Origin: Arbacia lixula
Taxonomy: Eukaryota > Echinodermata > Echinoidea > Arbacioida > Arbaciidae
Direction of reading: 5' to 3'
DNA: 64,000 bases
Assembly: GCA_963669155.1 (NCBI GenBank)
Contig: OZ022581.1
Coordinates: 2,016,247-2,080,246, forward strand
This document shows positions 31,501 to 63,637 of the stretch, piece by piece (positions within the stretch are counted from its first letter, which is position 1; every line of letters begins with the position of its first letter). Under the pieces are notes generated by a model that saw only the letters and a list, made by a program, of their open reading frames with translations, ran no database searches and was not told the DNA's origin. The translations under genes and the position numbers were made by a program.

Positions 31501-33396
31501 AGAGGGAGAGAGAGAGAGAGAGAGGGTGGGGGGGGGGGGGGTGCAGCTCACCTTGAGGACGGCTTTGTCTGCGCATCTGTAATCGCATGAAATACACCTG
31601 ATGTTCTTCTCCTCGTCCGTGGCGTGCATGCGTCTGTAGTGGACCTTCAGGTTGTAGGGCGTGGTCGTGCACTTGCCGCACTTGTCACACATGAAGTTCT
31701 TGGCTCCCGTGTGCACAATGGCGTGTTTCTTCAGATCGTGGAACCGATTGGACGAGAAGCTGCACTTGTCACACCGGTGCAGCTGCAGCAGGCCCTTATG
31801 TGCGACGACCATGTGGAGCCGAACGGACGCATCGTCGCCTGGGTCGAACGCATCGCATTCCGTGCAGTGGACGTCGTTGCTGCCTTCGCGGTAGTGCTTG
31901 TATTTGTGTTCGACCATGCTTTCCTCCGTGTTGAACTTGGCGTTGCACACGTCGCAAACAAACGCCACGAGTCGACTTTGGAGCTTCTCCCTGTCCTCGC
32001 CTTGAAGCCGCGGCGCGTAGTACGGCCTCTTTCGAGCAGGCTCCCCATTTTTCGGTGGGCGTCCGACAGGCCTCTTGCCTTTCGGAGGTCTACCTCGTCC
32101 TCTCTTCTTGGGTTTGTCGTCATCGTCCTCCTCAATAGTCTCCTCCTCCTCTCCTTCGATGTCCTCGTCAATCTTCTGATCGGACGGCATTTCTTGTGCA
32201 AGATCTGTCGATTTATTTCCGGCATTTGGCTCGCTAGTCGAAATACTTTTCTTCTTTTTCTTTATGTAGGAAGAGAACTCAGAGATATCAGAGTCCTTGT
32301 CAGTAAGCTTTTCGATAATTGGTGGTCTAATATGCATGATCATGGTATGGCTTCTGAGAGCTCCAACCTTCGGGAATTCCTTCTCGCAACCTTCAAACTC
32401 ACAGGTGACCTTACTCATCATCTGGTCGTGTACCTTGCGGTAGTGATGTCTCATGTTACGCCAGTGCAGGCACATGAACTGGCAGATGAAGCACCGGAAG
32501 CCCTCCATGTTCGCCACGTGACACTTGACGTGAACGTCATACTCTGCCTCGGGCATGCCAGTTCCGCGGCATCGCTCCACCTCGCAGTAGTACATGTCCA
32601 TGGCGTGCTTGTCATCGTATGTCTTCTGCCATTCCTTGACGCGGTCTCGGATGATCTTGCCGAACACCTTAAATGGGACTCGCAGATTCAGTCGCGTCTT
32701 ATTGTCGCCTCTCGCGGAGATGCTGTCACTACCGCGCCAGTTCCGGTCATCTTTCTCTTCGCGATCCTTCTCGGTCTTCCGCGGGCGACCACGTTTACGA
32801 CCAGAAGGGTTTTTTGTCTTGAGTGGGATGATCTCGAGCCCCATCAAGTGCCTCTTATCGTCTTTCTGTTCATTCAATGTGTAGTCTTCTGTCTCTCCTT
32901 CTTTCTCCTCTTCTCTCTCACCCACATCCCCATCACTTGCAGCATCTTGCTCATCTTGAAGTAAATCACTATTATCATCATCATCATCATCACTCGCGTC
33001 GCCGAATGACATCTTTTTCTTCTTCCTTTTCCTCATGCCGCGCCCAAATGTCTCCGTTTCTACTTGGGAGGGAGTCGGCGGAGCTGCAGGCGCTGCTCCC
33101 TGGGTGCTCGGTGTCTTGGTCTTCTTCCTCCTATCCTTTGGGCGGCCTCGTTTGTGTTTAGTCCTAGAGGAAGGTGTCTCCGGAGATTCCTTTGTCTCCT
33201 TGCTTTGTTCTCCCGCTTTCCCAAGCCCACCCCCCGTGGGCTGTTTCTCCTTAGGAGAGGATTTCTTCCGTGGCGAAACATACTCCACTTCGATGTGCTC
33301 ACTCAGAAAATGTTCTGCTATTTCGGACTTGTCTGTTCCGGTGAAATTGCAGAGCTTACACCGAAACTGTACATCTCCCTCCTCATCAGAGTTCAT
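28039..33396 (-). CDS. ZF3: multi-C2H2 zinc-finger protein with AT-hooks (5 coding exons)
   Basis: Third family member, 1,063 residues. Coding exons run 33396-31552, 30896-30629, 30173-29770, 29224-29069 and 28557-28039, with phases 0, 1, 0 and 0. Finger 1 is at residues 13-34, three fingers at about 271-355, nine more from about 481. AT-hooks with cores RGRPKD (84), RGRPRK (203), RGRGRPPKG (433) and VGRPPK (444) make it the most AT-hook-rich of the three. FGRGMRKRK is near 118, between acidic runs. The tail has a Q/H tract, V-T-Q-Q-I-I, and a C-terminus (A-E-L-V-M-S-M-M-Q) like that of ZF2. The ATG at 33396 is 17 nt after the acceptor and is followed at once by finger 1, so the start is well supported. 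Function as a chromatin or DNA-binding regulator is inferred. Confidence 0.87.
29069..29224 (-). CDS. ZF3 52-codon exon (A-E-G-L-S-Q-E-E-A-I-G motif)
   Basis: Acceptor ccttctgcag, donor ACGCAG then GTGAGA. 156 bp with symmetric phase 0, so it can be skipped without a frame change. It aligns with the first part of the ZF2 terminal exon (S-T-A-L-S-R-L against A-S-A-L-S-R-L). It has no visible counterpart in ZF1. Confidence 0.8.
29575..29718. mobile_element. Palindromic MITE family P2, copy 2, in a ZF3 intron
   Basis: GGGTCCTGTCTCATACAGAC faces TCTTTGTAAGATGGGCAC. It shares ACTTGCGATTGA and GATCAATC arms with 16411-16555. It sits within about 50 bp of the ZF3 exon ending at 29770. Confidence 0.6.
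29770..30173 (-). CDS. ZF3 exon with final finger
   Basis: 404 bp, phase 1 in, phase 0 out (GCAG then GTACCT). Completes finger 12, encodes finger 13 (C-N-I-C-G-W, N-M-W-K-H-V-D-A-H) and the L-R-A-P-T-G-K-K-R-S motif. Confidence 0.88.
30629..30896 (-). CDS. ZF3 268-bp finger exon
   Basis: The acceptor is a pure (CT)n tract ending ctag; the donor is AGAG then GTATGT. Encodes D-H-I-R-Q-Q-H, two complete fingers and the C-P-H-C half of finger 12. Length and phase match ZF1 and ZF2 exactly. Confidence 0.9.
30898..31265. repeat. GA-rich low-complexity intron segment
   Basis: A (GA)n run next to the acceptor, then interrupted GA/GATA sequence and a G-run near 31018-31031. Confidence 0.85.
31491..31541. 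repeat. (GA)n plus poly-G by a ZF3 donor
   Basis: A GA run and a G-run ending about 10 bp from the donor of the first coding exon. Confidence 0.85.
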
Positions 33397-33413
33397 CTTC
33401 TTTTAACTTTCTT
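31552..33413 (-). CDS. ZF3 first coding exon
   Basis: Acceptor ttgttctacag at 33414, a 17-nt leader, then the ATG at 33396. Donor CTCAAG then GTGAGC (phase 0). Encodes 615 residues with AT-hooks, a D/E-rich segment and fingers 1-8 plus half of 9. A long open frame on the opposite strand is a shadow of this exon. Confidence 0.88.
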
Positions 33414-43077: not shown

Positions 43078-43273
43078 CCGAGTTTCGGACCCATGTAGCC
43101 CCCAGCACCGGCCCCATGTAGCTCTCAGTACCGGCCCCACGTAGTCCCCAGTTCCTACGTGGTCCCCAGCACCGGCCCCATGTAGCTCTTATTGCCGGTC
43201 TCATGTAGACCCCAGCACCGGCCCTCTGTACGCCCCAGCACCGGCCCCATGTAGCCCCCAGCACGGGCCCCAC
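43078..43273. repeat. Minisatellite of 23-bp units, small block
   Basis: Eight or so units of the GGCCCCATGTAGCCCCCAGC type, same orientation as the main array 1.2 kb away. Sharp edges against AT-rich flanks. Confidence 0.9.
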
Positions 43274-44463
43274 GTGGCCACCAAAATCATAAGACTTTTG
43301 TCGCGTTTCTTTTCTTCGGAGACCCATCCGATTCAGTCCACGTAGTAAGCTATGAGCTGTAGACGATCAGCGCATAATGTTCCTGGCAACAGAATAACAA
43401 AAGTGTACATTAAGAACACAAATTTTCACGACATGTTTTGCACTTATATTGACATTGGAAGGAGAGAGAGAGAGAGAGGGGGGGGGGGGGGGGGGATGGG
43501 AGAGTGAGAGGCGGAGATAACATTTTTGAAAATATTTTTGTTGCAATTTGTGGAATCTCTATTTTGTTTGTATTATTACAAGATCAATGCATCTGATATT
43601 CTTGAAAAACAATCGGAAAACGCTTCGTGCATGTTATCGTTGACTTTAATTTCTTTTATATCTTTATAGGTCATTAAGCGTGCCATACATCATTATAAGA
43701 AAGACCAACAAAATAGTTCATATTTATGTACTATTAATTATCATTTATTACAAAAGCATATCTGCATGATTGTGAGAGGAATTGATATACTGTATAGCCC
43801 GTGATTAATGAGCAAATATTTACCGAAAAGGCATCCTTTACTACTAGAAAATCATGCTGCCGCTGTTTTGTTTCCGTCAGTTCTTACTGCTCCATCGTCA
43901 CTGACTGTCATGCTGCAGTACCAACAATGCATCGCTGATTCATCTTGAAAACTAGATGAGCAAAAAAAAAAAAAAAAACCACACACACAACATGCCCGTT
44001 TATTTTATAAACGTAATTACATCTAATTTATTATTCCTTATCATAGTCATAATTTGATAATACCATGAAAACGGCAGTTAACTTTACTGCTTGGCTAAGC
44101 AAATACGGTGAGTAAAATACCAAAGACAATCTGCCCCGAATATACCAATTAAGAAACAGTCACACACATAAATCACGGTTGGAATAATTACCCACAAATT
44201 AACTGCAGGCATAACACCCTTATGCGTACATTTATGTATTACATGTAATTAGTTTGAACAAAACATCATGTATGTTTTCTAATCTTTTCTTTTAATGGTA
44301 GAGGGTAGAAAATTTGAAGTTGTAATTGAAATGCAGCATCTTACCTACCCTCGTTTTATTTTCTCCATGTGATTCTCTCATTCCCTTCCTCATTTCCATA
44401 TTTTCTTCTTCCTGATCTCACAGCATCTTTGCGTGCATGCAACTCCTAGTGGTTCCTTGCCCC
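43274..44463. other. AT-rich spacer between minisatellite blocks
   Basis: No gene seen. Contains GA and G runs at 43462-43495 and an A-run near 43960. Confidence 0.5.
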
Positions 44464-46641
44464 TGAGCCACACCCCCAGTACCGGCCCCATGTAGCCCTT
44501 AGCACCTGCCCCATGTAGTCCCCAGTACCTGGTCCCCAGTACCGGCCCCATGTAGCCACCAGCACTGACCCCACGTAGTCCCCAGTATCTACGTGGTCCC
44601 CAGCACCGGCCCCATGTAGCTATCAGTATACCGGCCCCATGTAGCCCCCAGCACCGGCCCCATGTAGCCCCCAGCACTGGCCCCACGTAGTCCCCAGTAC
44701 CTACGTGGTACCCAGCACTGGCCCCATGTAGCTCTCAGAACCGGTCCCATGTAGCCCCCAGCACCGGCCCCATGTAGCTCTCAGTACCGGTCCCATGTAG
44801 CCCCCAGCACCGGCCCCATGTAGCCACCAGCACTGACCCCACGTAGTCCCCAGTATCTACGTGGTCCCCAGCACCGGCCCCATGTAGCTATCAGTATACC
44901 GGCCCCATGTAGCCCCCAGCACCGGCCCCATGTAGCCCCCAGCACTGGCCCCACGTAGTCCCCAGTACCTACGTGGTACCCAGCACTGGCCCCATGTAGC
45001 TCTCAGAACCGGTCCCATGTAGCCCCCAGCACCGGCCCCATGTAGCTCTCAGTACCGGTCCCATGTAGCCCCCAGCACCGGCCCCATGTAGCCCCCAGCA
45101 CTGGCCCCACGTAGTCCCCAGTACCTACGTGGTCCCGGCCAGCACCGGCCCCATGTAGCTCTCAGAACCGGCCCCAAGTAGCTCTCAGTACCGGCCCCAT
45201 GCAGCCCCCAGCACATAGCCCCATGTAGCCCCCAGCACCGGCCCCATGTAGCCCCCAGCACTGGCCCATGTAGCTCACAGCACTGACCCATGTAGCTCAC
45301 AGCCCTGGCCCCACGTAGTCCCCAGTACGTGGTTCCCAGTACCGGCCCCATGTAGCTCTCAGTACCGGCCCCATGCAGCCCCCAGCACATAGCCCCATGT
45401 AGCCCCCAGCACCGGCCCCATGTAGCCCCCAGCACTGGCCCATGTAGCTCACAGCACTGACCCATGTAGCTCACAGCCCTGGCCCCACGTAGTCCCCAGT
45501 ACGTGGTTCCCAGTACCGGCCCCATGTAGCTCACAGTACCGGTCCCATGTAACCCCCAGCACCGGCCCCGTGTAGCCCCCAGCACATAGCCCCATGCAGC
45601 CCCCAGCACATAGCCCCATGTAGCCCCCAGCACCGGCCCCATGTAGCCCCCAGCACCGGCCCCATGCAGCCCCCAGCACATAGCCCCATGCAGCCCCCAG
45701 CACATAGCCCCATGTAGCCCCCAGCACCGGCCCCATGTAGCCCCCAGCACTGGCCCATGTAGCTCACAGCACTGACCCATGTAGCTCACAGCCCTGGCCC
45801 CACGTAGTCCCCAGTACGTGGTTCCCAGTACCGGCCCCATGTAGCTCTCAGTACCGGCCCCACGTAGTCCCCAGTACCTACGTGGCCCCCAGCACCGGCC
45901 CCATGTAGCTCCCAGTACCGGCCCCATGTGGCCCCCAGCAAGGGCCCCATGTAGCTCCCAGCACTGGCCCATATAGCTCACAGCACTGGCCCCACCTAGC
46001 CCCCGGTACCTACGTGGTCCCCAGCACCGGCCCCATGTAGCTCAAAGCACTCCCCCCACGTAGTCCCCAGCTCTGGCCCATGTAGCTCTCAGTACCGGCC
46101 CCATGTAGCCTCCAGCACTGGCCCCATGTAGTCCCCAGTAGCTACGTGGTCCCCAGTACCGGCCCCATGTAGCTCTCAGCACCGGCCCCATGTAGCTCAC
46201 AGCACTGCCCCCACGTAGTCCCCAGTACCTACGTGGTTCCCAGTACCGGCCCCATGTAGCCCCCAGTACCGGCCCCATGTAGCCCCCAGCACTGGTACAT
46301 GTAGCTCACAGCACTGGCCCCATGTAGCTCTCAATACCGGCCCCATGTAGCCCCCAGCACCGGCCCATGTAGCTCACAGCACTGCCCCCACGTAGTCCCC
46401 AGTACCTACGTGGTTCCCAGTACCGGCCCCATGTAGCCCCGGGCCAGTACCGGCCCCATGTAGCCCCCAGCACTGGTACATGTAGCTCACAGCACTGGCC
46501 CCACGTAGTCCCCAGTACCTACGTGGTCCCCAGTACCGGCCCCGTGTAGCCCCCCGCCCTGGCCACATGTAGCCCCCAGCCCTGGCCACATGCAGCCCCC
46601 AACACCGGCCCCATGAAGCCCCGGGCTCTTCATGGGGCCGG
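44464..46641. repeat. Main GC-rich minisatellite array, 23-bp unit
   Basis: About 2.2 kb of units such as CCCCATGTAGCCCCCAGCACC, with variants in which CACGTAG and CTACGTG pair as a small stem. Larger periods are visible, for example one block starting at 44551 recurs at 44819. Because 23 is not a multiple of three and the unit lacks minus-strand stops in some frames, long open frames (up to about 310 codons) arise; they are not considered genes. Confidence 0.93.
46605..46641. other. Inverted unit forming a 14-bp hairpin at the array edge
   Basis: CCGGCCCCATGAAG, nine bases, CTTCATGGGGCCGG. The array ends in a partial unit of opposite orientation. Confidence 0.85.
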
Positions 46642-47278: not shown

Positions 47279-47697
47279 TTACTTACCTGCAGGGCTCGTG
47301 GGAGTTAAATCTTCGCCGCCATCCTCGGCATTAAGCTTCTCAGTCTCCTGAGTAACTTCCCCGCTGCCCGATACGCAGACATCTGTTCCCTCATTGGTCA
47401 GAAAGTTTGCTGACGTCGCCTCGCCCCTGACGTGATTGGCCGTAGCGCGCAGCCCGGCATTGAGTGCGCGCACTGTGTAATCCCACACGAAGCAGAGGAC
47501 TGCGCAGATGGCCATGTTCTGGGTGGACCACAGGATGAAGAGGAGAGATGGCCACAGATCGATGTGGATCTCATCCGGGTCTGCTTGCATGGCTGGTGAC
47601 GTCACCTCTACGTCAGTTGGAGTGTCGTTAATCAGACTCGGTATGTACTCACCAGATGTGTTGGTGGTGGTCTGAGCATGCTCAGTTGGCTGGTCAA
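47279..47697 (-). CDS. MYR cassette 3, exon C3 (helix, longer tail)
   Basis: Homologous to C1 and C2 through the helix, then diverges after L-R-A-T-A into a 50-residue tail with G-S-G-E-V-T-Q-E-T-E-K. A donor (GCAG then GTAAGT) lies at 47287 in phase 1; if unspliced, the frame stops two codons later (TAA, 47281-47279). It can therefore be a last or an internal exon. Confidence 0.62.
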
Positions 47698-48049
47698 CTT
47701 GACATGGTAAAGAAAGTGAAACAGTTGAGGTAAAAATAAGACAACTAATTACTGCGTGTCACTATCAACAAGGTTCATGATTTATACTGCGCTTGTATAT
47801 ATCATTTAATCATGATCGAATGTTGAAACGACAAATCTCATTAACATTGGCATTAAGGCGTGTAGTAAGTCAACGGATTTGTTCAAGACTTGACATGTAA
47901 AGGTTATATAGATCACTTTGCTTTTTCATTTTGTTCATGAGGAGGATGGATTGTTGGCTGAGTCATGAACGATGTTAGTATTTGATCGTATTGATGTTTA
48001 AAACTTTTAGACCTGAAACTAAATAATCCATGTGCAAACTTTTTCATAC

Positions 48050-48235
48050 CTGTCTGCTCAGTAGCACTGATTTCCTGCATCTGCGCATCGCCGATGCGGA
48101 TGGGCGTGTTCTTTCGCCCTTCGGCCACATAGCGTGCGTACTCCTCAAACGACACCACCTCAGATGACGCATCCTCCTCATCGCCATCGTCGGAGCCGGA
48201 GTCGAAATCATCGCTGTCATCATCCGGGGGTGGAT
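48050..48235 (-). CDS. MYR cassette 3, exon B3
   Basis: 186 bp, phase 1-1, acceptor ggcag, donor ACAG then GTATGA. A few residue changes from B2 (for example S-G-S-D-D-G-D), frame intact, suggesting purifying constraint or recent copying. Confidence 0.68.
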
Positions 48236-49024
48236 CTGCCGTAAAAGGGATATGAAGGTTTTCATTATGTTATAATTTATCCAGTGCAAAACTTTATAAA
48301 ATATAAAGTATGATACAAAATGTAAATCTTATCATAAAATTGAGCACACCCTTAATTCTAAGCACGATACGTTCATTAACATTTTAGCCCACCGTTACAC
48401 AAATTACTGCTCTGCAGAGCTATCTACCATGTCTACGTTACTGATTCATCAACCATGTCATATAGACCTATTCATGCTTATTCAAGACTCAAGATTCAAT
48501 CTTATTTTCCCACAAAAAAGACAACAAACAAAATACATACATAAGGTTCAGATTCAATCAATGTAAATAACAAACAAAAAATAAACACAATTCATTCATA
48601 GAAACACCATTTTTTGAGGAGGGGTCCAAAAAGAAGCAGGGCTTGTGTTCATTCGCTCCCGACTGAAAGTATATAGAGATTATGTAATATATGATACATT
48701 CTAAGTAAATATATAAGTGAAAATCTAAAACCTTTCGCTTGACAATGTTTCTCTTTAACAAAAAGAACAACAGCAACAAAACAACACATTTTCTTATCGT
48801 GATGCGACATGATTAGATTAATTCTTTCATTTAGCATAACTTAATAGAAATTGGATACTATGGAGAAAACACAAACAAATTTTTCCCCTTCGAATTAACA
48901 GCTAAACCATAGAAAATGAATTGTGTTACGCTAATGATTATTTTCATAAACCTTTCTTTAAAAGTAAATACATAACATCGTAAATCAAACGTCATGATGA
49001 ATGGAAAGTTCTGACAATACTTAC

Positions 49025-49123
49025 TCCATACGATGCAGTGGTCGTCGAGGTTCCTGGGGTATGACGTAGATGGTGTGTCTGGGTCCATCTCCACGTAGTG
49101 ACAGCGGCATCTCCCCGGGCAGC
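49025..49123 (-). CDS. MYR cassette 3, exon A3
   Basis: 99 bp, phase 1-1, acceptor ctttgtag, donor GGA then GTAAGT. Encoded peptide appears identical to A2. Confidence 0.65.
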
Positions 49124-49615
49124 CTACAAAGGACGAGGGGAAGGGTTGGTTGGGGGCATTTTAGAATAATGAATAATTTTAGAATAATAAATTGAACTAA
49201 ACACTATCCGTAATTTGTATGCACTAAATATTGATTTAACACATTTGACTTATCTGACGCGAACTACATTCAAAAGATTGACAAATCCAACATTTCAATG
49301 TGGTTTGACTTACGGTCATTTGTATACGTTATGAGAGGACATCTTATCTTTTGTGTTTCAAAATTAGATTTTTACATCAAATACAATTTAAGCACAAGGC
49401 GTGCATATTATGTTCAAATTAAAGCACAACTACTTGCATTTTTCTCATCTAACATATTAAAAGAATATTGGGAGACTATAGTGTGTCACTCTTTTTGTAT
49501 CCGCTAATAATTGACTTTATCTTATTGGTGCAAAGAACAAACCAATAAAACTCATTTATATATCCTAAGGATATATCAACTTCATGTAATGATATTCGGA
49601 GGTATGTAGGTCTTT

Positions 49616-49911
49616 CTAACCGGCCAGTCCGATCCCGTCTCCAGCGAGCTTCGCCGTAGCGCGCAGCCTGGTGTTGAGGGTGCGCACTGTGTAATCCCAC
49701 ACTAAGCAGAGGACTGCGCAGATGGCCACGTTCTGGGTGGACCACAGGATGAAGAGGAGAGATGGCCACAGATCGATGTGGATCTCATCCAGGTCTGCTT
49801 GGCTGGTTGTTGACGTCACCTCTAGATCACTCGGAGTGTCGTTAATCAGACTCGGTATGTACTCATCAGATGTGTTGGTGGTGGTCTGAGCATGCTCAGT
49901 TGGCTGGTCAA
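49616..49911 (-). CDS. MYR cassette 2, exon C2 (helix and stop)
   Basis: 296 bp, acceptor gtgaag, TAG at the same place as C1. The hydrophobic helix reads W-P-S-L-L-F-I-L-W-S-T-Q-N-V-A-I-C. Would serve as an alternative last exon. Confidence 0.68.
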
Positions 49912-50247
49912 CTTCACGTGGTAAAGTAAGTGAAACAGTTGAGGTAAAAACAAGACAACTAATTACTGCGTATCACTATCAACAAGGTTCATGATTCATA
50001 CTACGCTTGCATCATGATCGAATGTGGAAACGGCCAATCTCATTAACATTGGCATTAAGGCGTGTAGTAAGTCGACGGATTTGTTCAAGACTTGACATGT
50101 AAAGGTTAGATCATTTTGCTATTTCATTTTGTTCATGAGGAGAATGGATTGTTGGCTGAGTCATGAACGATGTTAATATTTGATCGCATCGATGTTTAAA
50201 ACTTTCAGACCTGAAACTAAATAATCCGTCTGCAAACTACTTAGTAC

Positions 50248-50433
50248 CTGTCTGCTCAGTAGCGCTGATTTCCTGCATCTGCGCATCGCCGATGAGGGTG
50301 GGCGTGTTCTTTCGCCCTTCGGCCACATAGCGTGCGTACTCCTCAAACGACACCACCTCAGATGACGCATCCTCCTCATCGTCATCGTCGGAGTCAGAGT
50401 CGAAATCATCGCTGTAATCATCCGGGGGTGGAT
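50248..50433 (-). CDS. MYR cassette 2, exon B2 (acidic, 62 codons)
   Basis: 186 bp, phase 1-1, acceptor cacgacag, donor ACAG then GTACTA. Encodes P-P-P-D-D-Y-S-D-D-F-D-S-D-S and S-F-E-E-Y-A-R-Y-V-A-E-G-R-K-N-T-P. Same length as B3. Confidence 0.68.
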
Positions 50434-51075
50434 CTGTCGTGAAAAGGGGGATGGAAGGTTGTCAGTATGTTATAAACTCTCCAGTGCAAAGCCCTGAGTA
50501 CTCTAAGATGCATTGTGAAATATATAGTATAATTAAAACATGAAAATATTATCATGAAATTGAGCACACCCTTTATTCTAAGCATGATACGTTCATTAAA
50601 ATTTTTAACCCACCGCTACACAAAATACTACTGCTTTGCAGGGCTATGTACGTTACTGATTCATCAACCATGTCATATAGACATGTTCGTGCTTATTCAA
50701 CATTCAAGACGGGTGAAGGTATATAGAGATTATATAATATATAATACATTCTAAGTAAACATATATATGAAAAACTAAAATCATACGCTCGACAATGTTT
50801 CTCTTTAACAACAAAAACAACAACAAAACAACACACTTTTTTATCGTGATACGACATGATTAGATTAATTCTTTCTTCTAGCATAACTTAATGGAAATTG
50901 GATACCATGGAGGAAACACAAATAAACAATTTTTTCCCTTCGAATTAATAGCTAAACCATATAAAATGAATTGTGCTACATTGATGATTATTTTCATAAA
51001 AATTTCTTTGAAAGTGTTGCACAAAACATGGTAAATAAAATATCATAATGAATGGAGAGTTCCGACAATACTCAC

Positions 51076-51174
51076 TCCATACGATGCAGTGGTCGTCGAG
51101 GTTCCTGGGGTATGACGTAGATGGTGTGTCTGGGTCCATCTCCACGTAGTGACAGCGGCATCTCCCCGGGCAGC
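51076..51174 (-). CDS. MYR cassette 2, exon A2 (Cys-rich, 33 codons)
   Basis: 99 bp, phase 1-1, acceptor tgtacag, donor GGA then GTGAGT. Encodes G-C-P-G-R-C-R-C-H-Y-V-E-M-D-P-D and a D-D-H-C-I-V-W end. Nearly identical to A3, frame intact. Confidence 0.65.
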
Positions 51175-51273
51175 CTGTACAGGACAAGGGAAAGGATTGG
51201 GGTGCAGGGGTGTGCGTGGGGGCATTTCAAAACAACCGTAATTAGAATTGAACCAAACAATATTCGTAATTTT

Positions 51274-51526
51274 CATGGTCTTTTTTGGTCTCATCACAGC
51301 ATAATTTGACATGTTTTATGGGGAAGCACTCGTTATTCCGAAGGCTCGTTATAATTCCGAACGTTACAATTGCTCGGATTAACGAACCCTTTTTCGTTTT
51401 CGGACTAACGAGCATCGAGCCTAAAGGCAATTTACGCGTTACGGAATTACGAACCTTCGGAATTAACGAACCTTCGGAATATCGAACTGTAACCGTTTTA
51501 TGTATCACGTTCAGAGGGCAGCATCA
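51274..51526. mobile_element. Insertion rich in TTCGGAAT/CGAAC motifs
   Basis: Present in the intron before A2 but absent from the otherwise matching intron before A3, where CGTAATTT joins TAAATATTGATTTAA within a few bases. The insert repeats CGAACCTTCGGAATTA-type words in both orientations. Class unknown. Confidence 0.6.
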
Positions 51527-51921
51527 TAAATATTGATTTAAGATAACCTGTCCGACCTGAATTACATTCAAACGAATGATAAATCCAACATTTCAGTGTA
51601 ATTTGACATAAGTCCATTTGTACTCGTTATGTGAGCGAATGTTTTGTGTTTCAAAACTAAACGTTTAGATCAAGTACAATTAAACTATGATATGTGCACA
51701 TTCACATTCAAATGAAAGTACACCTGGTTGCATTTTCCCAAAGCATTTTCCTAAAGCATCAAGAGCATATTGTTAGTATGGTGTGCCACTTTCTTTCGAA
51801 CTGCTATCAAATTACGAGTTGTGTAATGAGCAAATTAATTAAACATATTTTATCAGTTTGGAGGATTTTTTTTTTACTTCATGTTACACTTTTCGGAATA
51901 AAAATGTTCATGAAGGTCTTT

Positions 51922-52217
51922 CTAACCGCCCAGTTCGATCCCGTCTCCAGCGAGCTTCGCCGTAGCGCGCAGCCTGGTGTTGAGTGCGCGCACTGTGTGA
52001 TCCCACACTGCGCAGAGGACTGCGCAGATGGCCATGTTCTGGGTGGACCACAGGATGAAGAGGAGAGATGGCCACAGATCGATGTGGATCTCATCCAGGT
52101 CTACTTGGATGGCAGATGACGTCACCTCTGCGTCAGTTGGAGTGTGGTTCACCAGACTGAGGCTGTCCTCACCATTGGTGTTGATGGTGGTCTCAGCATT
52201 CTCCGTTGCCTGGTCTA
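51922..52217 (-). CDS. MYR exon C1: hydrophobic helix and stop
   Basis: Acceptor AAG before 52217, conserved in C2 and C3; an alternative CAG acceptor six bases upstream would start it at 52223. Encodes V-D-Q-A-T-E-N, D-E-I-H-I-D-L-W-P-S-L-L-F, the helix, and a tail ending L-G-G-stop. 296 bp, the same length as C2. Confidence 0.72.
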
Positions 52218-55200
52218 CTTCACCTGATGAAACATTATGTGGCAGTAAAAGGGGTATAGAATAAAGCAAAATCATTTTGTTGTACAGTAAACAAAAATGG
52301 GTCTTGTTTAAAAATAACTAGTATATATTTTATTTAATTGAGCAATGCAAGTCCTTTATAGGGAAAACAGAAAAGAAAAATATTATTTTTTAAAAGTGAT
52401 GTTAAGTCCAACTTACAGTCGCGGTCAGCAAAGACGTCGTTGTCCACGGGGCCATTTGACTCGACATCGGCTGAGTAGTCATCGTCATCGATATCACTGT
52501 CAGATTGGTCTAGGGTAAAAGGGCATTATGAATAGTAATCATTCATAGTGTTATAAACAACAGCTACCACCGACCGTATTAACCTTACAGGCATTACATG
52601 CCGATATGTTTCTTTGACAATTGAAAAAAATCGACACTATTGGCATGATTGGGGGAACTTAATCAAAGAAATAGTGACGTTGTGTTCATTATCATTTTTT
52701 TTATATTCCAGAAGATGAGGGAGATCAAGAAATATTGATCTTACGTGATGGTGGCTTTTAAGTCATTTCTCTCGGCCAATTCTCATTTTGTTTGTTTTTA
52801 ACAGGGTGCAAGTGGAGAGAAAGCCTTTAATCCATGGCTTATTGTACTTCTCCTCTATTAAAGATATCAACAAATCTGTCGAAATTCAACTCACTTCACT
52901 CCTTATATTATTGTACAGTATAGCTTACCTTTTTTCGAATTCATAGTACAAAACATGATATGAAATATATACCACGAGAGCATATAGTCTACGTTGTGTT
53001 ATTAATATTGTGATTTGAATTTCAGTGACTTTTAAATTTTAAGTAATGGATCATAATAACCATCTAGTAATGGCAGTAGGAGTTTCGCTGCTTTTTCACG
53101 GAAGTAGATAACAAAAGCGGTAAAATGAACTGTGCGTTTTGACTGATTACCTTCCACATGGACAAGTATGTTGCTCATGGTGACTGGGCTCCGGCCGGTG
53201 CCTTCAGTCTGAGCTGTCAGGTTGATGTCAGTATGTGCACCATCCTGGCTCTGCTGGTCGGACTCCTCCTCGCCCATAGTCAGTGGGCTGGACTGACTAG
53301 GTGGCTCGAGCTCCATAGCAGAGGCGGTATCATGTGCACCATCTCCACACCCATCCGTTAGCTGTGAGGTAGGGTAGTGGCATGGCTTGGGGAATTCCGG
53401 GCAGGACTGGGTGTCTTCCCATTCCTCGGTGAGGGAGATTGATGAGTGACATGCCCGGTGGAGCTCTGGGCATGACTTAACATCATGTGCACTATCTCCG
53501 TCAAGGTCGGATGCCTGGCTCTGCTGGTCGGACTCCTCCTCCCCCACAGTCAGTGGGCTGGGCTGACTGCGCGGCTCGAGCTCCATACCAGAGGCGGTAT
53601 AATGTGCACCATCTCCCTCATCCTTAGTCGCCTTGGATGGACGACGTGTTTATGTTACAAATAATACTACCGTCTTGCATTTTAAATTGTTTTAATATCA
53701 ATTTATCTGCATATATATATGTTAGAGAAGAAATTCCGACAAATTTTATTTACCTAAGGTAAGAAAATCTTTATCACACAAATCCCTTCTTTTCGAAGGT
53801 CCTTTATTATGGAACTCTCTACAGGATGACATTCGTGAATCAAAATATGTAAATATTTTTAAAACGAGGTATAAATAATATACTCATAACGTATACTTGC
53901 GATTAACTAAATTCAACCCATAGACATAGTATTTAGTAGTTTGTATATTTATGTTTTGGAATTTATGTACAATCTTTTGTTTTAAATCCATGAGTCGACA
54001 ACACGATAAGGTCTTGATACCTTTTGGTTTCCTACCATCATAAATTTATACTTTTAACTTGTACATGCAGTTTTGATTATAAATGAATTATACTTTTATA
54101 TTGTTATCGATTTGTATGTATTTTATATTGCTGTTTTTTGTATTGAGAAAAATAAACTGAACTGAACTAAACTTACCTGGCAAAACGCTGGCTCTGGGTG
54201 GATCAAAGCATGAACCAGTACAGAGCTGTAGAGATCTTCATCTTCAGAGTCCTGGTCTTGGTCCTGGTCCGATTCCTCAGATTCGCCAAACTGCCAGAGT
54301 GGTTTGGAGAATTGGCGTTGTAGCTGCCTTCCACCGTCAGTTGGCATGGTTGGAACGTAAGGTGTACTATCAGCATCATCTTCATCCTGAAGACTGATGT
54401 GTGGTACCGCCTATGGAAGTCGAGAGTAATGAGTTTAAAAATATGATCTACTGTGGAATTCAGATCACAAACGTTTTCAACAGAAATATGATATATAAAT
54501 CTGTGTGAGAGTTATTTTTTTTTATCATGATTGATCCAGAAGTTTGGAATTCCTTAGGGGTTAGTATAGGTTTTTGGTTAAATATATTTGCCCCATCGTG
54601 CCATGTTTCGTTGCTTTATGAAGTTAAGGGAAATCCCCCGAAATTAAGTGTGGATTGCTAAAAGCAGTGACATAAAACAACGTATTATTGAGGGTTTGAT
54701 GAAAATCTCTCGAAGGATAAGAAATGTATCATTGTTTTAATATTTAATTTTTGACGTCATTATGTACGTTGTTCTTTCATAAAATTATGTTGTGCACTAA
54801 TTTGTTTGAAAATGCCCACATTTTTAAAAGTATATACGTATATACTACTTTACAAGTGCATTTGATTTATCATTCGTCACATCTTTTTACACACATGCCT
54901 AATTAAAAAATGCATTCCTTCATAAAAACATCAATAACAGGGAATAGGCCTAAGTAATTAACACAACATAGTGGGAGAGCAACTTGCAAGTGACGTCACA
55001 ACCTTGAAACTTTGAAAAGACATAACTTCCTTATCCTTTGCCGGCTTTTCGTCAAATCTTCACCAATATGTTCCTTTAAGTTTTTTGCTATAATCAAAAT
55101 CAATTCAACTTCGGGGTGGACTTTCCCTTGAAACGCATTTGAACTCAACATACTAATTCGTAGACCTGTTGAAAAGTCGTAGGTAAGTTTAAAACCAAAC

Positions 55201-57761
55201 ACAGGTTTATGTAAGAAGATGTGCCCAGGCGGCGATTGACATTGATTTAATAAAATAAAAGAATGTCAACTTTAAAATATAATATGATTGATTCTACGTC
55301 TAGAAAATGTTGTTTTTTAATCATTATTTGGCATTCTTGGCGTTCTTCCACTGAATGTCTATCGTCCCTACTAATCTCTTGAATTGCCGATTGGGAAGGG
55401 GGAGGGGGGGGGGGGGTGGAGTGACGTACTTCGTTTGTACCGATCAACATTTCCCCCACACACTATCAATATCGTTAATAAGAAACTAAAAACATCAGCA
55501 CCTAGATACAATCCCGCAAGCTTCTCCTTTTTTATAGGCCCCCAACTACACACACACACACACACACTTTTTAATATTTTTTCCTTTAACACAAATGTAC
55601 ACGTAGTTTGTAATTTATATGAGCTATATGCATTACACATATCGTGATTATTACTGTCTATATTCACATATGTGTGCAAGCCCATTCTCATCTCCATAAT
55701 CTTGCATATTTTATGCAAAACATGAGGAAACAATAACATGAATAAATTCAATAGACCGGTTTACTAATGTAGTCAAATTTATGGATGTTTCTTCCCTCTG
55801 AACCTAGTAATGAGTTATTCCATTAACCTGTACCTAACAATGGTATTTCAGTACTTGGAATCCACTTTGCATACATTAGTTGTTGTTATTTTGGGCAAAA
55901 CTCGGGCAAGCTGTCCGGTTTTCAGGAGCAATCTTTGTTAAACTGGTATGCATAAAAATTGAATATGTTTGTAAACCGGTCTATTCAATTCAATTTTCCA
56001 CTGAAAGTCCCTTGTCCTTCTTGGGTTGTCGATTGGGGGCGGAGTGACGCGCTTTTCTTCTTGCCCGTATCAGAGAGGTGTAAGGAATGGAGTCAGCACG
56101 AAGTGTAATTTATTCCTCCAGCAGTCGCGAGCATTGATATCACAATTGAATATTTTACGCGTTTGGCTCTTTGATCGTGGGAGATCTGCCGCGAAATATG
56201 CAAGACAAATTTTGTATGCATTTAGAGGAATATATATTCTGTATGCGCAAAAGATTTTAAAACCATTTCATTTACTGAAGCGCATGTGCAGTGGTAGAGC
56301 ATCGTATAATGATAGGATTCTGTGAAATTCAGATTATATTGTTGCTTTTTTTTATATATATAGATCGAGAATACAGTCGAAAACATGTCAGAGAAATGCC
56401 TCCATATCGCACATTGGCCAATCATATTTCATTACAAATATCTTGTAAATCGTGTATTGGGTGTTTCACCTTCGACGGAAACAACCTCGATTAATGTGCG
56501 GAGATGTCCGAAAAAGTTACGGACCAAAATTCTTTCTACAATTTTATCAGTCCATCCGAGCGCAGTCCATCCATGATAGGTCCATGCCCGTATCAAGGAC
56601 TTTATCTTAATGTCACCAAGCCGTTTCCATCAATACTATTACAAGGGGTGTGGTAATGACTTCCACACCCCTAGTAATGGCAATCATTCATTAGCATAAA
56701 CATGACCAGCTGCACGGAATTTGTATAATTTATCAATTCATAAATCGGGCAAACATTTCGTAAATGTTGTGGTTACCAAATGATTGACAACTTTGGGGCA
56801 AAAGTATTTGTATGTCACTTAACGGTTCTTCTAAAATAATTGGTTTTACCATGGACCTATCATGGATGGACTGCGCTCGGATAGACTTCCTTTGATCTAT
56901 GATGACCACCGCCTCATAAAAATTCAAGACATTCAGGTGTTTTAAACAATACGCTGTATTTCTAATGAGGCAGTGCCTTCCTCTGAATAACAAAAGAAAA
57001 TCTGTTTTGAGAAATATGTCAACCGTTCAGCCTTCGCTGGGAGTTCATAGCTGATCTTATTACACACACTGGGAATTAGTTTGGAGGTGAGCGAAGGGAA
57101 ATTTTGATAAAATTGTAGAAAAGGTCCGTAACGTTTTCGGACATCTCCGGACACGAAATCGACGTTGTTTCCATGGAAGGTGAAACACTCAATAAACGAT
57201 TTACAAGATATTTGTAAGAAAATATGATTGCCCAATGTGCGATATTGAGGCATTTTTCTGACATGTTTTCTACCGTATTCTTGATTTATCACAAAAACGA
57301 CGCAACAATATAATCTGAAATTCACAGATTCGTATCATTATAAGATGTACTACTACTGCACATGTACTTCAGTACATGAAGTGGTTCTGAAATCTTCTGC
57401 GCATGCAGATTGTATATTCCTCTAAATGCATCCAAAATTTGTCTTGCATATTTGGCGGCGGTCATCACTGGATCAAAGAACCAAACGCGTAAAATATTCT
57501 ATTGTGGTATCAATGATCGCGACTGGTGTATGAATAAATTACTCTTCGTTCCGACTCCAGTTCTAACACCTTCCTGGTTTTACGAAGCACACCTCTCTTT
57601 TTAAAAAATGTCATCACATAATCAGGTATTTCACCGTCCTCTTACACCCCTCCCCCCCCCCCCCCCCGCGTACACTGCAAAATAAGACATACAGTTTATT
57701 CATACCTTATTGGTTACTCACGGCTTGATACAGTACGCATAAGTAAAGAATAGGCCCCTGG

Positions 57762-57798
<37 letters not shown>

Positions 57799-58159
57799 TT
57801 CCGCTTTCTTCTATCTGTTTCTTCTCTTGCAAATATATATATATTTTATCGTTCATCTTCATCCTCCCCTCACCTGGTAATTACAGGACAACGTACGTGC
57901 ACCCCCCTCAACGTACAATCACAAGCCTATATCTTCCAACATCAACATTTACTTTGAGAAAGTCGAGTAAGATGGTAATGCATACATACAAACAACGCAC
58001 ATGACGTCACGCTTCGATCCTTACCTTGCTCCTCCTGCCGAACACGGTCCGTTTTCCTCCCTTAAAAGTCGCCTTTCTGCTCCCAGATCGACGACGAGGC
58101 GGCTTCTCTTCCGCCTCCTGTGTCGACAAACACGCAACTTTCGATTGTATACAACCCAT
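51922..58159 (-). CDS. MYR: predicted N-myristoylated, acidic, single-helix membrane protein (main form, 5 exons)
   Basis: Exons 58159-58025, 54410-54177, 53631-53151, 52509-52417 and 52217-51922 splice in frame (phases 0, 0, 1, 1) into 412 residues; a TAG ends the last exon. The protein starts MGCIQSK, with Gly2 for myristoylation and Cys3 for palmitoylation as in Src-family kinases. A basic patch (P-P-R-R-R-S-G-S-R-K) follows, then long D/E/S/Q-rich regions and, about 45 residues from the end, one hydrophobic helix (W-P-S-L-L-F-I-L-W ... A-V-L-C-A-V-W). It is expected on the cytoplasmic face of a membrane, held at both ends. No enzyme domain is seen and I recognise no family. An upstream in-frame TGA and the ACAATGG context support the start. 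Two downstream exon cassettes could replace its C-terminus. Confidence 0.7.
52417..52509 (-). CDS. MYR exon 4: short acidic exon (diverged B type)
   Basis: 93 bp, symmetric phase 1. Encodes Q-S-D-S-D-I-D-D-D-D-Y-S, similar in composition and place to the B exons of the downstream cassettes. Acceptor ttaccctag, donor GACT then GTAAGT. Confidence 0.7.
53151..53631 (-). CDS. MYR exon 3: internally repeated acidic segment
   Basis: 481 bp, phase 0 in and 1 out. The block D-G-A-H-x-T-A-S-x-M-E-L-E-P and G-E-E-E-S-D-Q-Q-S-Q occurs twice, separated by a C-P-E-L/C-P-E-F segment, showing an internal duplication. The acceptor (tccatccaag) has a weak pyrimidine tract. Confidence 0.7.
53725..54170 (+). 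mobile_element. 5'-truncated LINE fragment (3' end of ORF2 and tail)
   Basis: The frame reads R-N-S-D-K-F-Y-L-P-K-V-R-K-S-L, then G-P-L-L-W-N-S-L-Q-D-D-I-R-E-S and F-K-T-R-Y-K-stop. This is the terminal motif G-P-x-x-W-N-S-L-P-x-x-I-R ... F-K-x-x-L-K of CR1/Rex/RTE-like reverse transcriptase proteins. About 290 bp of 3' UTR follows, ending in AATAAACTGAACTGAAC. It lies antisense to MYR inside intron 2. Confidence 0.75.
54177..54410 (-). CDS. MYR exon 2: acidic D/Q/E segment
   Basis: 234 bp, phase 0-0. Encodes A-V-P-H-I-S-L-Q-D-E-D-D and an E-S-D-Q-D-Q-D-Q-D-S-E-D-E-D run, ending P-A-F-C-Q then GTAAGT. The donor sits a few bases from the 3' end of an inserted LINE fragment. Confidence 0.75.
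54626..55130. mobile_element. P3 foldback element (about 505 bp)
   Basis: AAGGGAAATCCCCCGAAATT at the left faces AACTTCGGGGTGGACTTTCC at the right. Both arms contain TTTGA(T/C)GAAAA, AAGGATAAG and TGACGTCA-like words in mirrored order. Long imperfect arms of about 150 bp. Confidence 0.65.
55383..55416. repeat. G-rich run with duplicated surroundings
   Basis: A G-rich tract in a segment (CTTCCACTGAATGTC ... GCCGATTGGGAAGG) that resembles 55995-56050 (TTTCCACTGAAAGTC ... GTCGATTGGGGGCGG). Confidence 0.5.
55752..55983. mobile_element. Non-autonomous element with TTCAA target duplication
   Basis: TTCAA at 55747-55751 and 55984-55988 flank inverted ends TAGACCGGTTTAC / GTAAACCGGTCTA. 232 bp, non-coding. 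Confidence 0.65.
56075..56587 (+). repeat. R1 dispersed repeat, copy A (internally shortened)
   Basis: Shares GGAGTC(A/G)GCACGAAG, GACAAATTTTG, CATCGTATAATGATA and CATGTCAGAGAAAT with copies B and C, and ends ATCCATGATAGGTCCATG. About 200 bp of the interior is missing. Confidence 0.7.
56849..57571 (-). repeat. R1 dispersed repeat, copy B (uninterrupted)
   Basis: 723 bp from AGGTGTTAGAACTGGAGTCG to CCATGATAGGTCCATGG on the minus strand. No terminal inverted repeats or coding frame. It provides the empty site for the N1 insertion in copy C. Confidence 0.75.
57762..57795. repeat. (CT)n microsatellite
   Basis: About 17 CT dinucleotides. Confidence 0.95.
58025..58159 (-). CDS. MYR exon 1: lipidation signal and basic patch
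   Basis: 45 codons beginning MGCIQSKVACLSTQ and ending F-G-R-R-S-K, donor AAG then GTAAGG, phase 0. Strong Kozak (A at -3, G at +4) with an in-frame TGA just upstream. Confidence 0.8.
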
Positions 58160-61654: not shown

Positions 61655-62159
61655 GTAATACGTTGGATTCACATCATCTCAAGCAACCATTCCACATGCA
61701 CTCAACGTTGGATCAGCAACTCTCTTTCCACTCACCATCACCATGACAATGGTAGTAGTTGGTGTACATACTCATGACATTAAACAATTCTTTGTAACAA
61801 TGACAGGTAGATTTACGCATAACTGATGTACGACGTCTAAAACGATGAAGTGTCAGCATATCAGTAACAAAGGCATAATAATGTTTATGATTATTTTTAA
61901 TTAAATGTATTGATGGTTGACACTTGAATGAATTAGGTATTTAAGAGTACACTAGGAAGTAGTTTTTTTTTATCTTGGAATCGAGATACAAGATAAGATT
62001 ACAATGTAAGTAAAACCCATGTTGTGAAATTAACAAGAAATGTTATTATAAGAGCTAAAGATGTGTGGTAATAACATTACAAAAATGTCAGCATTTACAT
62101 TTTTAGCCATGGTAATTGATAAGGGAGTGAACATGCACCTGGTGTTTGTAGAAGAATGA

Positions 62160-63637
62160 AGGTGTTAGAACTGGAGTCGGCACGAAGAGTAATTTATTCC
62201 TACACCAGTTGCGTTCATTGGTAGCACAATGGCATATTTGACGCGTTTGGTTCTTTGATCCAGTGACAACCGCCGCCAAATATGCAAGACGAATTTTTGA
62301 TTCATTTAGAGGAATATATATTTTGTATGCGCAGAAGATTTCAGAACCACTTCATGTACTGAAGTGCATGTGCAGTAGTAGAACATCGTATAATGATACG
62401 ATTCTGTGAATTTCAGATTATATTTTTTCTTCGTTTTTGTGATAAGTCGAGAAAGCTGTCGAAAACATGTCAGAGAAATTCCTCCATATCACACATTGGG
62501 CAATCATATTTCCTAACAAATATCTTGTAAATCGTTTATTGAGTGTTTCACCTTCCACGGAAACAACCTCGATTTCATGTGCGGAGATGTCCGAAAAAGT
62601 TACGGACCAAAGTCTTTCTACAATTTTATCTAAATTTCCCTTCGCTCATTCCCCAATCTAATTTCCAGTGTGTGTGTAATAAGATCAGCTATGAGCTCCC
62701 AGCAAAGGCTGAACGATTGACATATTTCTCAACCCAGATTTTCTTTTTTTTTTTATTCAGACACCTGTCAGAGGAAGGCACTGCCTAATTAGAAATACAG
62801 CGTATTGATTGAAACACCTGAATGTCTCGATTTTTTATGAGGCGGCGGTCATCACAGATCAAGCAGGGATGTGTTAGGAAGGAGGGACAACTCAACCATA
62901 ATATATTCAAACATCTGTATGGATACTAAAGCGTGCTAATGAATGTCAAAAGCATTCCACAATCACTGCAATGCTTTGAAGTCCCATGCGCGGCACCGTC
63001 ATTTTGCTATCGTCAACTTGGAAAGCAGTATCTTTAATTGCCTGTTTTGTTTCTCGAAGCTGTGTTTCTTATCACATTTTTTTGTAATTTTCAAGAAAGT
63101 TAAGGGGCAACACCTCTAAAGATCCTGTATTCGTTTTTCTTCTAAATAATTGTTGAATGATGCACAAACGGAGATATAAGATAATATTCTTACTTGCATA
63201 ATTAACAAATTTCTTCACTTTCCGGAGATTTCCGGAAATGTCGGATTCAATCATTATCAAAATCATATATTAAGCTGCTTATTTTCATTAACAGAGTTTG
63301 CGTGAATTTGCGTGCAAATGAGATATTTTACTTTAAAAAACTGTTTATTTTTGTTCGCTGATATCGCTTTTCCTCACAAAAGTATTGATGCAATCCAACA
63401 GAAGTGGACAAGCGAAACAAGACTCTACATTTCTTTTGTTCTCTCTGAGAAACCGTTGCTACGCAATCGTGTTCGTTATTGTTAAAACACGTGAAAAGCA
63501 CATGCTGAGACCACGCAATTTTTCGGCGGTGCCACGCATGGGCTCAAAGAAAGAATGTTGTTTCATATCCTTCCATAACATATCCCTGGATCAAGGGAAG
63601 TCTATCCGAGCGCAGTCCATCCATGATATGTCCATGG
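62160..63637 (+). repeat. R1 dispersed repeat, copy C, interrupted by N1
   Basis: R1 sequence runs 62160-62863 and resumes at 63589-63637 (GTCTATCCGAGCGCAGTCC), with N1 copy 3 between. Same termini as copy B. Confidence 0.75.
62864..63588 (-). mobile_element. N1 element, copy 3 (725 bp, nested in R1)
   Basis: Inverted relative to copy 1 and of identical length. Flanked by GATCAAG at 62857-62863 and 63589-63595. Very similar to copy 1 along its length, so recently mobile. Confidence 0.88.

Follow-up and report, generated by a model that had tools for sequence, protein, structure and literature searches.

Tandem, frame-compatible exon units behind a putatively acylated N-terminus in a multi-copy gene family of the sea urchin Arbacia lixula

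In Drosophila, pip and PGRP-LC carry clusters of mutually exclusive alternative 3'-terminal exons, and competing RNA structures have been reported for PGRP-LC (PMC9013439); Spn42Da and other serpins possess alternative exon cassettes (PMC2770083). The SpTransformer (Sp185/333) genes of the sea urchin are clustered multi-copy genes with coding repeats, flanking tandem repeats and a history of segmental duplication (PMC10887614; PMC5491942). Here we describe a gene on the minus strand of a 64,000-nucleotide stretch of the Arbacia lixula genome, hereafter the window (GenBank assembly GCA_963669155.1, contig OZ022581.1, positions 2,016,247 to 2,080,246 of the forward strand). Like genes with alternative 3'-terminal cassettes, the window gene has shared 5' exons followed by tandem clusters of homologous 3' exons; like tandemly duplicated internal exon units, its unit exons have equal phase and lengths divisible by three. 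The gene belongs to a multi-copy family. As a preliminary description made from the window alone had held, a shared N-terminus, predicted to be lipid-anchored, is followed by repeated, frame-compatible A-B-C units. On the evidence of the DNA of nine related loci, we think it reasonably probable that these units are spliced in series to a common last exon, D, with the helix exons C1 and C2 perhaps optional.

Architecture and conservation of the gene family

The exons of the window gene are given in Table 1. The preliminary description had read MGCIQSK in the first exon and recognised three exons, C1 to C3, that encode the same hydrophobic helix; when its exons were re-read on the minus strand their coordinates agreed to the base, as did the lengths of the A and B exons (99 and 186 nt, phase 1-1) and of the C exons (296 nt for C1 and C2, 411 nt for C3). 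AG and GT are present at the internal exon borders, and the lengths of the A and B exons and of E4 are multiples of three with phase 1-1. What the preliminary description missed were exon D, the relic of an A exon after C3, the paralogues, and the fact that C1 and C2, if taken as 291-nt exons ending in G/GT (the slash marks the exon border), are phase 1-1 as well. In C1 this alternative end is a weak phase-1 donor, GTTAGA, with the exon ending at 51927; donor and stop overlap in the same way in C2, where the exon would end at 49621 if spliced.

Joined in full as E1-E2-E3-E4-C1-A2-B2-C2-A3-B3-C3-D, the 12 exons encode a protein of 849 aa (translated for the window gene only) with three hydrophobic peaks of 1.82-2.04, and the five exon skips that were tried in this gene are all in frame. 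The helix common to C1, C2 and C3 is hydrophobic enough to span a membrane, with an acidic side before it and a basic side after it, and each A exon carries the motif YVEM, of which there are two in all. At the DNA level the identity of C1 to C3 is 87.8% over 271 bases; C2 and C3 fall within a block of 87.8% identity, and C1 and C2, together with the following interval, within one of 75.8%. A2 and A3 are identical, although the blocks surrounding them are only about 88% identical. E3 contains an internal duplication (53244-53346 and 53514-53616).

Table 1. Features of the window gene and its C3-D intron; positions are those of the window.
Feature	Position	Strand	Remarks
E1, coding exon 1, MGCIQSK...GRRSK	58025..58159	-	predicted N-myristoyl/palmitoyl and basic membrane anchor, by the general rule
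E2, acidic coding exon, 234 nt, phase 0-0	54177..54410	-	
E3, coding exon, 481 nt, phase 0-1	53151..53631	-	
E4, short acidic exon, 93 nt, phase 1-1	52417..52509	-	
C1, helix exon, 296 nt to TAG (51924-51922)	51922..52217	-	
A2, Cys-rich exon, 99 nt, with YVEM	51076..51174	-	
B2, acidic exon, 186 nt	50248..50433	-	
C2, helix exon, 296 nt to TAG	49616..49911	-	
A3, Cys-rich exon, 99 nt	49025..49123	-	DNA identical to A2
B3, acidic exon, 186 nt	48050..48235	-	
C3, last helix exon, 411 nt to donor CAG/GTAAGT, long tail ...TSPAG	47287..47697	-	
A-exon relic after C3	47088..47122	-	locus C8a has an intact counterpart after its last C exon
23-bp G-rich minisatellite inside the C3-D intron	44473..46622	-	
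D, final exon, 44 nt, phase-1 acceptor, tail VFKMNQRCIVGTAA*	43908..43951	-	

Searches of the 607-Mb genome scored the best candidates only, and their match counts are therefore lower bounds. The C-exon peptide gave at least 30 matches in ten places, on the contigs that we call contig C2, C6 (that of the window gene), C8 and C11; the A+B peptide gave at least 39, all 39 of them at these same ten places. At least 14 matches were found for the exon-1 peptide, nine at the loci read here, one (C8:21087526) 39 kb from the C8 place at 21.13 Mb, and four elsewhere. These last are copies of E1 with open frames and no C-exon match beside them (C2:22110632, C8:20946550, C142:20778 and C14:12533415), and may represent incomplete copies or members that have diverged further. 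Nine of the ten places were read, including the window; the tenth is the one on C8 at 21.13 Mb. Seven other loci repeat the exon order of the window gene, with two to four C exons, and an eighth (C8a) has it in altered form; they lie on three other contigs, and a recurrence of this extent goes far beyond chance. Eight loci thus begin with E1, E2, E3, E4 and C1, to which one to three further units are added: locus C11b has two C exons, the window gene, C11a, C11c and C2a have three, and the three C2b loci have four, one of them without its A exon. C8a, the ninth locus, is more divergent, having two C exons and an E4 that is continuous with C1. Residues G2, C3 and S6 of exon 1 are kept in all nine read loci. 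We found no name for the gene family, and the string MGCIQSK occurs in none of the papers searched.

The preliminary description had supposed that C3 can splice on, and exon D bears this out. The C3 donor conforms to CAG/GTARGT, which is kept in all eight last C exons of the loci on contigs C2, C6 and C11, and D follows the last C exon in all nine read loci, with a phase-1 acceptor (...gctcatctag). Its stop is kept in eight of the nine; in C8a the frame runs eight residues further. A poly(A) hexamer lies 202-207 bases past the D acceptor in seven of the nine loci (AATAAA in six, ATTAAA in one; AATAAA at 202 bases in the window gene), and C2a and C8a have no such hexamer within 700 bases of D. 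AATAAA in a six-position stretch has a rate of 0.5% in the window; because the loci are related, its recurrence after D is not an independent count. When the sequence downstream of C3 was compared with that of C8a, nothing matched beyond D, the minisatellite, the A relic and a CT-rich stretch (41568-41199, 67% identity). Among the tblastx matches listed for 43.1-40.0 kb none was judged by eye to be coding.

The array is old and under constraint. In a tree of 27 C exons (C8a_1 was left out of both the tree and the substitution rates below, and the long tail of the C3 type was not used in the tree), the position labels first, middle, last and C8 can be accounted for by 5 changes, where shuffled labels need 13.5, none of 200 shuffles being as low. 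All eight loci have their first C exons in a single group (100/100), inside which lies one last exon, C11a_3, as gene conversion would give; the middle and last exons sort less cleanly, and only four of the 24 inner branches are starred. Since the first C exons group together, a multi-unit array is older than the split of the loci on contigs C2, C6 and C11. The long tail of the last C exon is likewise common to all eight last C exons.

Ratios of nonsynonymous to synonymous substitution (dN/dS) were calculated by the Nei-Gojobori method between the loci of contig C2 and those of contigs C6 and C11, and separately against C8a. In the first comparison the ratio was 0.06 for the A exons and 0.20 for the 24-residue hydrophobic stretch of the C exons (0.30 against C8a), followed by B at 0.51, E2 at 0.55, the C3 tail at 0.63 and part of E3 at 0.74. 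With C8 left out, the 15 copies of the A exon are 97% identical, with a mean identity of 93% at third positions, and identity steps at the exon edges to 38-85% in 20-base bins of the flanking intron. The constraint on the A exons and the hydrophobic stretch makes it probable that the downstream units 2 and 3 are used, while a large part of the rest of the protein evolves fast. The intron 30-75 bases past A, at 83-85% identity, stands above its surroundings, and in C11a the AG/GC of one A acceptor lies six bases upstream, with a 6-base insertion.

Serial splicing or alternative ends

The preliminary description proposed that the units provide selectable ends. This proposal is supported in part. 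The frame-compatible units and the ability of C3 to splice on stand; the part of the proposal in which C1 and C2 serve as alternative ends is, on balance, not supported. The stop of these exons overlaps a phase-1 GT. Across eight loci there are 18 non-last C exons, and every one keeps this G/GT. The site reads GTTAGA in 14 of them, where T-A-G is the in-frame stop, and GTGAGA in the other four, which have a good donor and no stop. These four exons stand first among the C exons in the loci of contig C2, and their read-through tails differ from each other and so look like intron. The end of the C exon was located with a pattern in which +3 may be either T or G; the pattern was present in 18 of 18, and the rows were also inspected without it. 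Across the 18 aligned rows, from -2 to +11 around the GT, only +3 varies, and whether the site reads TAG or GTGAG depends on this base. Neither C exon of C8a has the stop; both have a longer tail and strong phase-1 donors, GTGAGT and GTGGGT. Read straight through from E1 to the last C exon, all eight loci contain no stop and encode 641-896 aa.

Neither AATAAA nor ATTAAA occurs in the intervals after C1 or C2 in the window gene, nor in those of C2a. Over the 18 intervals that follow non-last C exons there are 7 such hexamers against 29.4 expected from first-order resampling, with control counts of 8 against 22.5 in the A-B introns, 13 against 11.7 in the B-C introns and 77 against 66.1 over whole loci. 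By these counts the intervals after C1 and C2 resemble internal introns, not 3' untranslated regions (UTRs); the shortage is not confined to them, as the A-B introns are also depleted.

Several observations weigh against serial splicing. The in-frame TAG lies at the donor in 14 of the 18 non-last C exons and, if GTTAGA is not spliced, C1 and C2 must be terminal or skipped. On a human donor matrix the C1 and C2 donors of the window gene score only 3.8 and 4.8 bits, values that 7-13% of all GTs in the window reach (the B2 donor scores 4.3 bits). The donors of C8a lie further downstream in the exon, and their homology with the GT of C1 and C2 is presumed. A variant hexamer, AGTAAA, is found at +48 after C1 in the window gene and in the three C11 loci; after exons of the C1/C2 type, closely related paralogues agree in pairs in having ATTAAA (+270/+282) or AATAAA (+437/+438). 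In the tree, the middle and last C exons of the contig C2 loci cluster together (97/95) and not by position. Finally, constraint is weak in places: between the contig C2 and C6/C11 loci dN/dS was 0.83 for E1, 0.80 for the N-terminal part of C and 1.67 for E4, and against C8a it was looser, at 0.40 for A and 1.05 for the conserved part of B.

That TAG and the AGTAAA after C1 are what one would expect if C1, C2 and C3(-D) were alternative C-terminal ends, with E3 or E4 joining one cassette only and with C1 or C2 closing the mRNA by a stop and a 3' UTR of its own, like the ends of Drosophila pip. The exon joins that were tried keep the frame, as such a choice would need, and between positions of one locus dN/dS is 1.00 for the N-terminal part of C and 0.53 for the helix part. 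We nevertheless regard this explanation as a minority possibility, rather unlikely on balance, given that the standard hexamers are absent after C1 and C2 of the window gene and scarce over the 18 intervals, that a poly(A) hexamer instead follows D in most loci, that TAG is lost in exactly those four exons where a good donor appears, that neither C exon of C8a has a stop, and that a crude duplex test revealed no competing docking/selector pairing (15/19 and 3/19 shuffles were as low).

The weak donor and TAG of C1 could also mean that C1 is the normal end of a protein of 412 aa and that everything downstream is decaying duplicate sequence, a fate that the A exon after C3, already a relic, has met. 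We consider this very improbable, as the A exons, which turned up nowhere but downstream of C1, are under the strongest constraint in the gene and show the step in identity at their edges, and the downstream splice sites are intact in eight loci. Nor do we give much credit to the slightest of the possibilities, that the exons are divided among three short genes, or are carried by a mobile repeat, and do not form one gene. Copies on four large contigs with a minisatellite in common would suit a mobile element, but each read locus has a single E1 and a single D with the units between them, and the homologous block includes the 5' flank and the introns, as segmental duplication gives. The ground for refutation that the preliminary description had named, silence of cassettes 2 and 3 or their belonging to separate genes, is unlikely in view of the splice sites, the dN/dS and the frames, which are open in eight loci.

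We favour serial splicing as the ancestral plan, with the 12 exons of the window gene joined in the order given above and three helices in the product. The N-terminus would be dually acylated and would lead through mostly acidic sequence to the first helix exon, C1; one to three further units would follow, A-B-C or in some loci one B-C, and then D. Each unit would contribute a hydrophobic helix of membrane type and, in its A exon, a Cys-rich YVEM motif. Since 14 of the 18 donors are weak, with GTTAGA enclosing TAG, C1 and C2 are perhaps optional, and skipping of C exons would be a natural result of such donors; C1 and C2 would then probably be included variably, so that the number of helices changes while the frame and the D tail do not. 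MGCIQSK fits the N-myristoylation rule, with Cys3 as the candidate for palmitoylation, and YVEM fits the YxxM motif bound by PI3-kinase p85. Our guess is that the protein is most likely a membrane-bound scaffold or adaptor, to which each A exon would add one YVEM tyrosine.

It is conceivable, though we hold it doubtful, that G/GTTAGA is a stop placed inside a weak donor, such that splicing removes the stop and adds an A-B-helix unit while non-splicing ends the protein, with T or G at +3 setting "may stop" or "always splice". If true, the gene would count out one, two or three helices behind an acylated anchor, with settings that differ between paralogues.

Repeats and neighbouring features

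At each of the ten C-exon places the last C exon is followed by the 23-bp G-rich minisatellite, which in the window is also present at 43086-43283. The repeat is nearly restricted to these places. With at most one mismatch it has 148 matches in the genome; among the matches listed, 98 of 100 are at places of the family and two at C2:22.24 Mb. The reversed pattern has no genome match. As coding sequence the minisatellite was rejected: one frame is open for 330 aa, but stops elsewhere break the array in every frame listed.

The E2-E3 intron (54176-53632, minus strand) is an insert of 0.5-0.6 kb in the window gene and the three C11 paralogues, and the exon is uninterrupted at this site in the four loci of contig C2 and in C8a. 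An intron gain is probable from this distribution. The insert is a dispersed repeat with at least 46 genome matches, 41 of them outside the family on 16 contigs, and the donor and acceptor of the intron seem to have been formed out of bases of the exon that it interrupts. Large inverted arms, about 85% identical, in intron 1 (56076-57586), with a further copy upstream of the gene (62145-62862), are perhaps a transposon of the fold-back type. Elsewhere in the window, an array of apparently similar C2H2 zinc-finger genes lies at 5401-33402 on the minus strand; when four of its frames were scanned with Pfam zf-C2H2, one passed (31345-33402), two were below the cut-off and one had no match.

Comparison with known systems

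The joined protein of 849 aa matches no Pfam family above its cut-off (one match, at E 0.096, fell below its cut-off), SH3, SH2 and kinase domains included, and the family would thus be new to Pfam. Nothing at or above the cut-off was found in NCBIfam with C3 and E3, or in the PDB with E1+E2, the C exons or A+B+C. An AlphaFold2 model of the C3 exon, aligned with C1 and C2, has low confidence (mean pLDDT 54.1, pTM 0.26) and is therefore too weak for a fold search; it places adjoining helices at residues 49-58 and 62-94, the remainder being without regular structure.

Src-family kinases such as Lyn and Yes start with MGCIKSK. The window gene is similar to Lyn and Yes in its MGCIQSK start, in the predicted acylation signal of Gly2, Cys3 and Ser6 and in the basic residues that come next; unlike the Src-family kinases, its joined protein contains no kinase domain or other Pfam family above the cut-off.

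The remaining likenesses concern layout. With pip and PGRP-LC the window gene shares 5' exons held in common and then tandem clusters of homologous 3' exons (PMC9013439). It differs from them in that its units lead to one shared last exon, D, which has a poly(A) signal, and in that most of the evidence favours internal use of the clusters; the two are likened by layout, not by sequence. As in the serpins, a shared N-terminal part is followed by tandem cassettes that alter the later part of the protein (PMC2770083). Unlike the serpins, the 849-aa protein has no serpin domain at the Pfam cut-off, the units comprise up to three exons, and their most conserved parts are common to the units. The clustered copies, coding repeats, tandem repeats around the genes and segmental duplication are all reminiscent of SpTransformer (PMC10887614; PMC5491942), from which the family differs in that SpTransformer genes have two exons whereas our model of the window gene has 12 and an N-terminal acylation signal; again the likeness is one of layout, not of sequence. 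With ten paralogous arrays in one genome, varying in the number of their units, the strength of their donors and their stops, this family offers a natural series in which serial repeats can be set against alternative ends.

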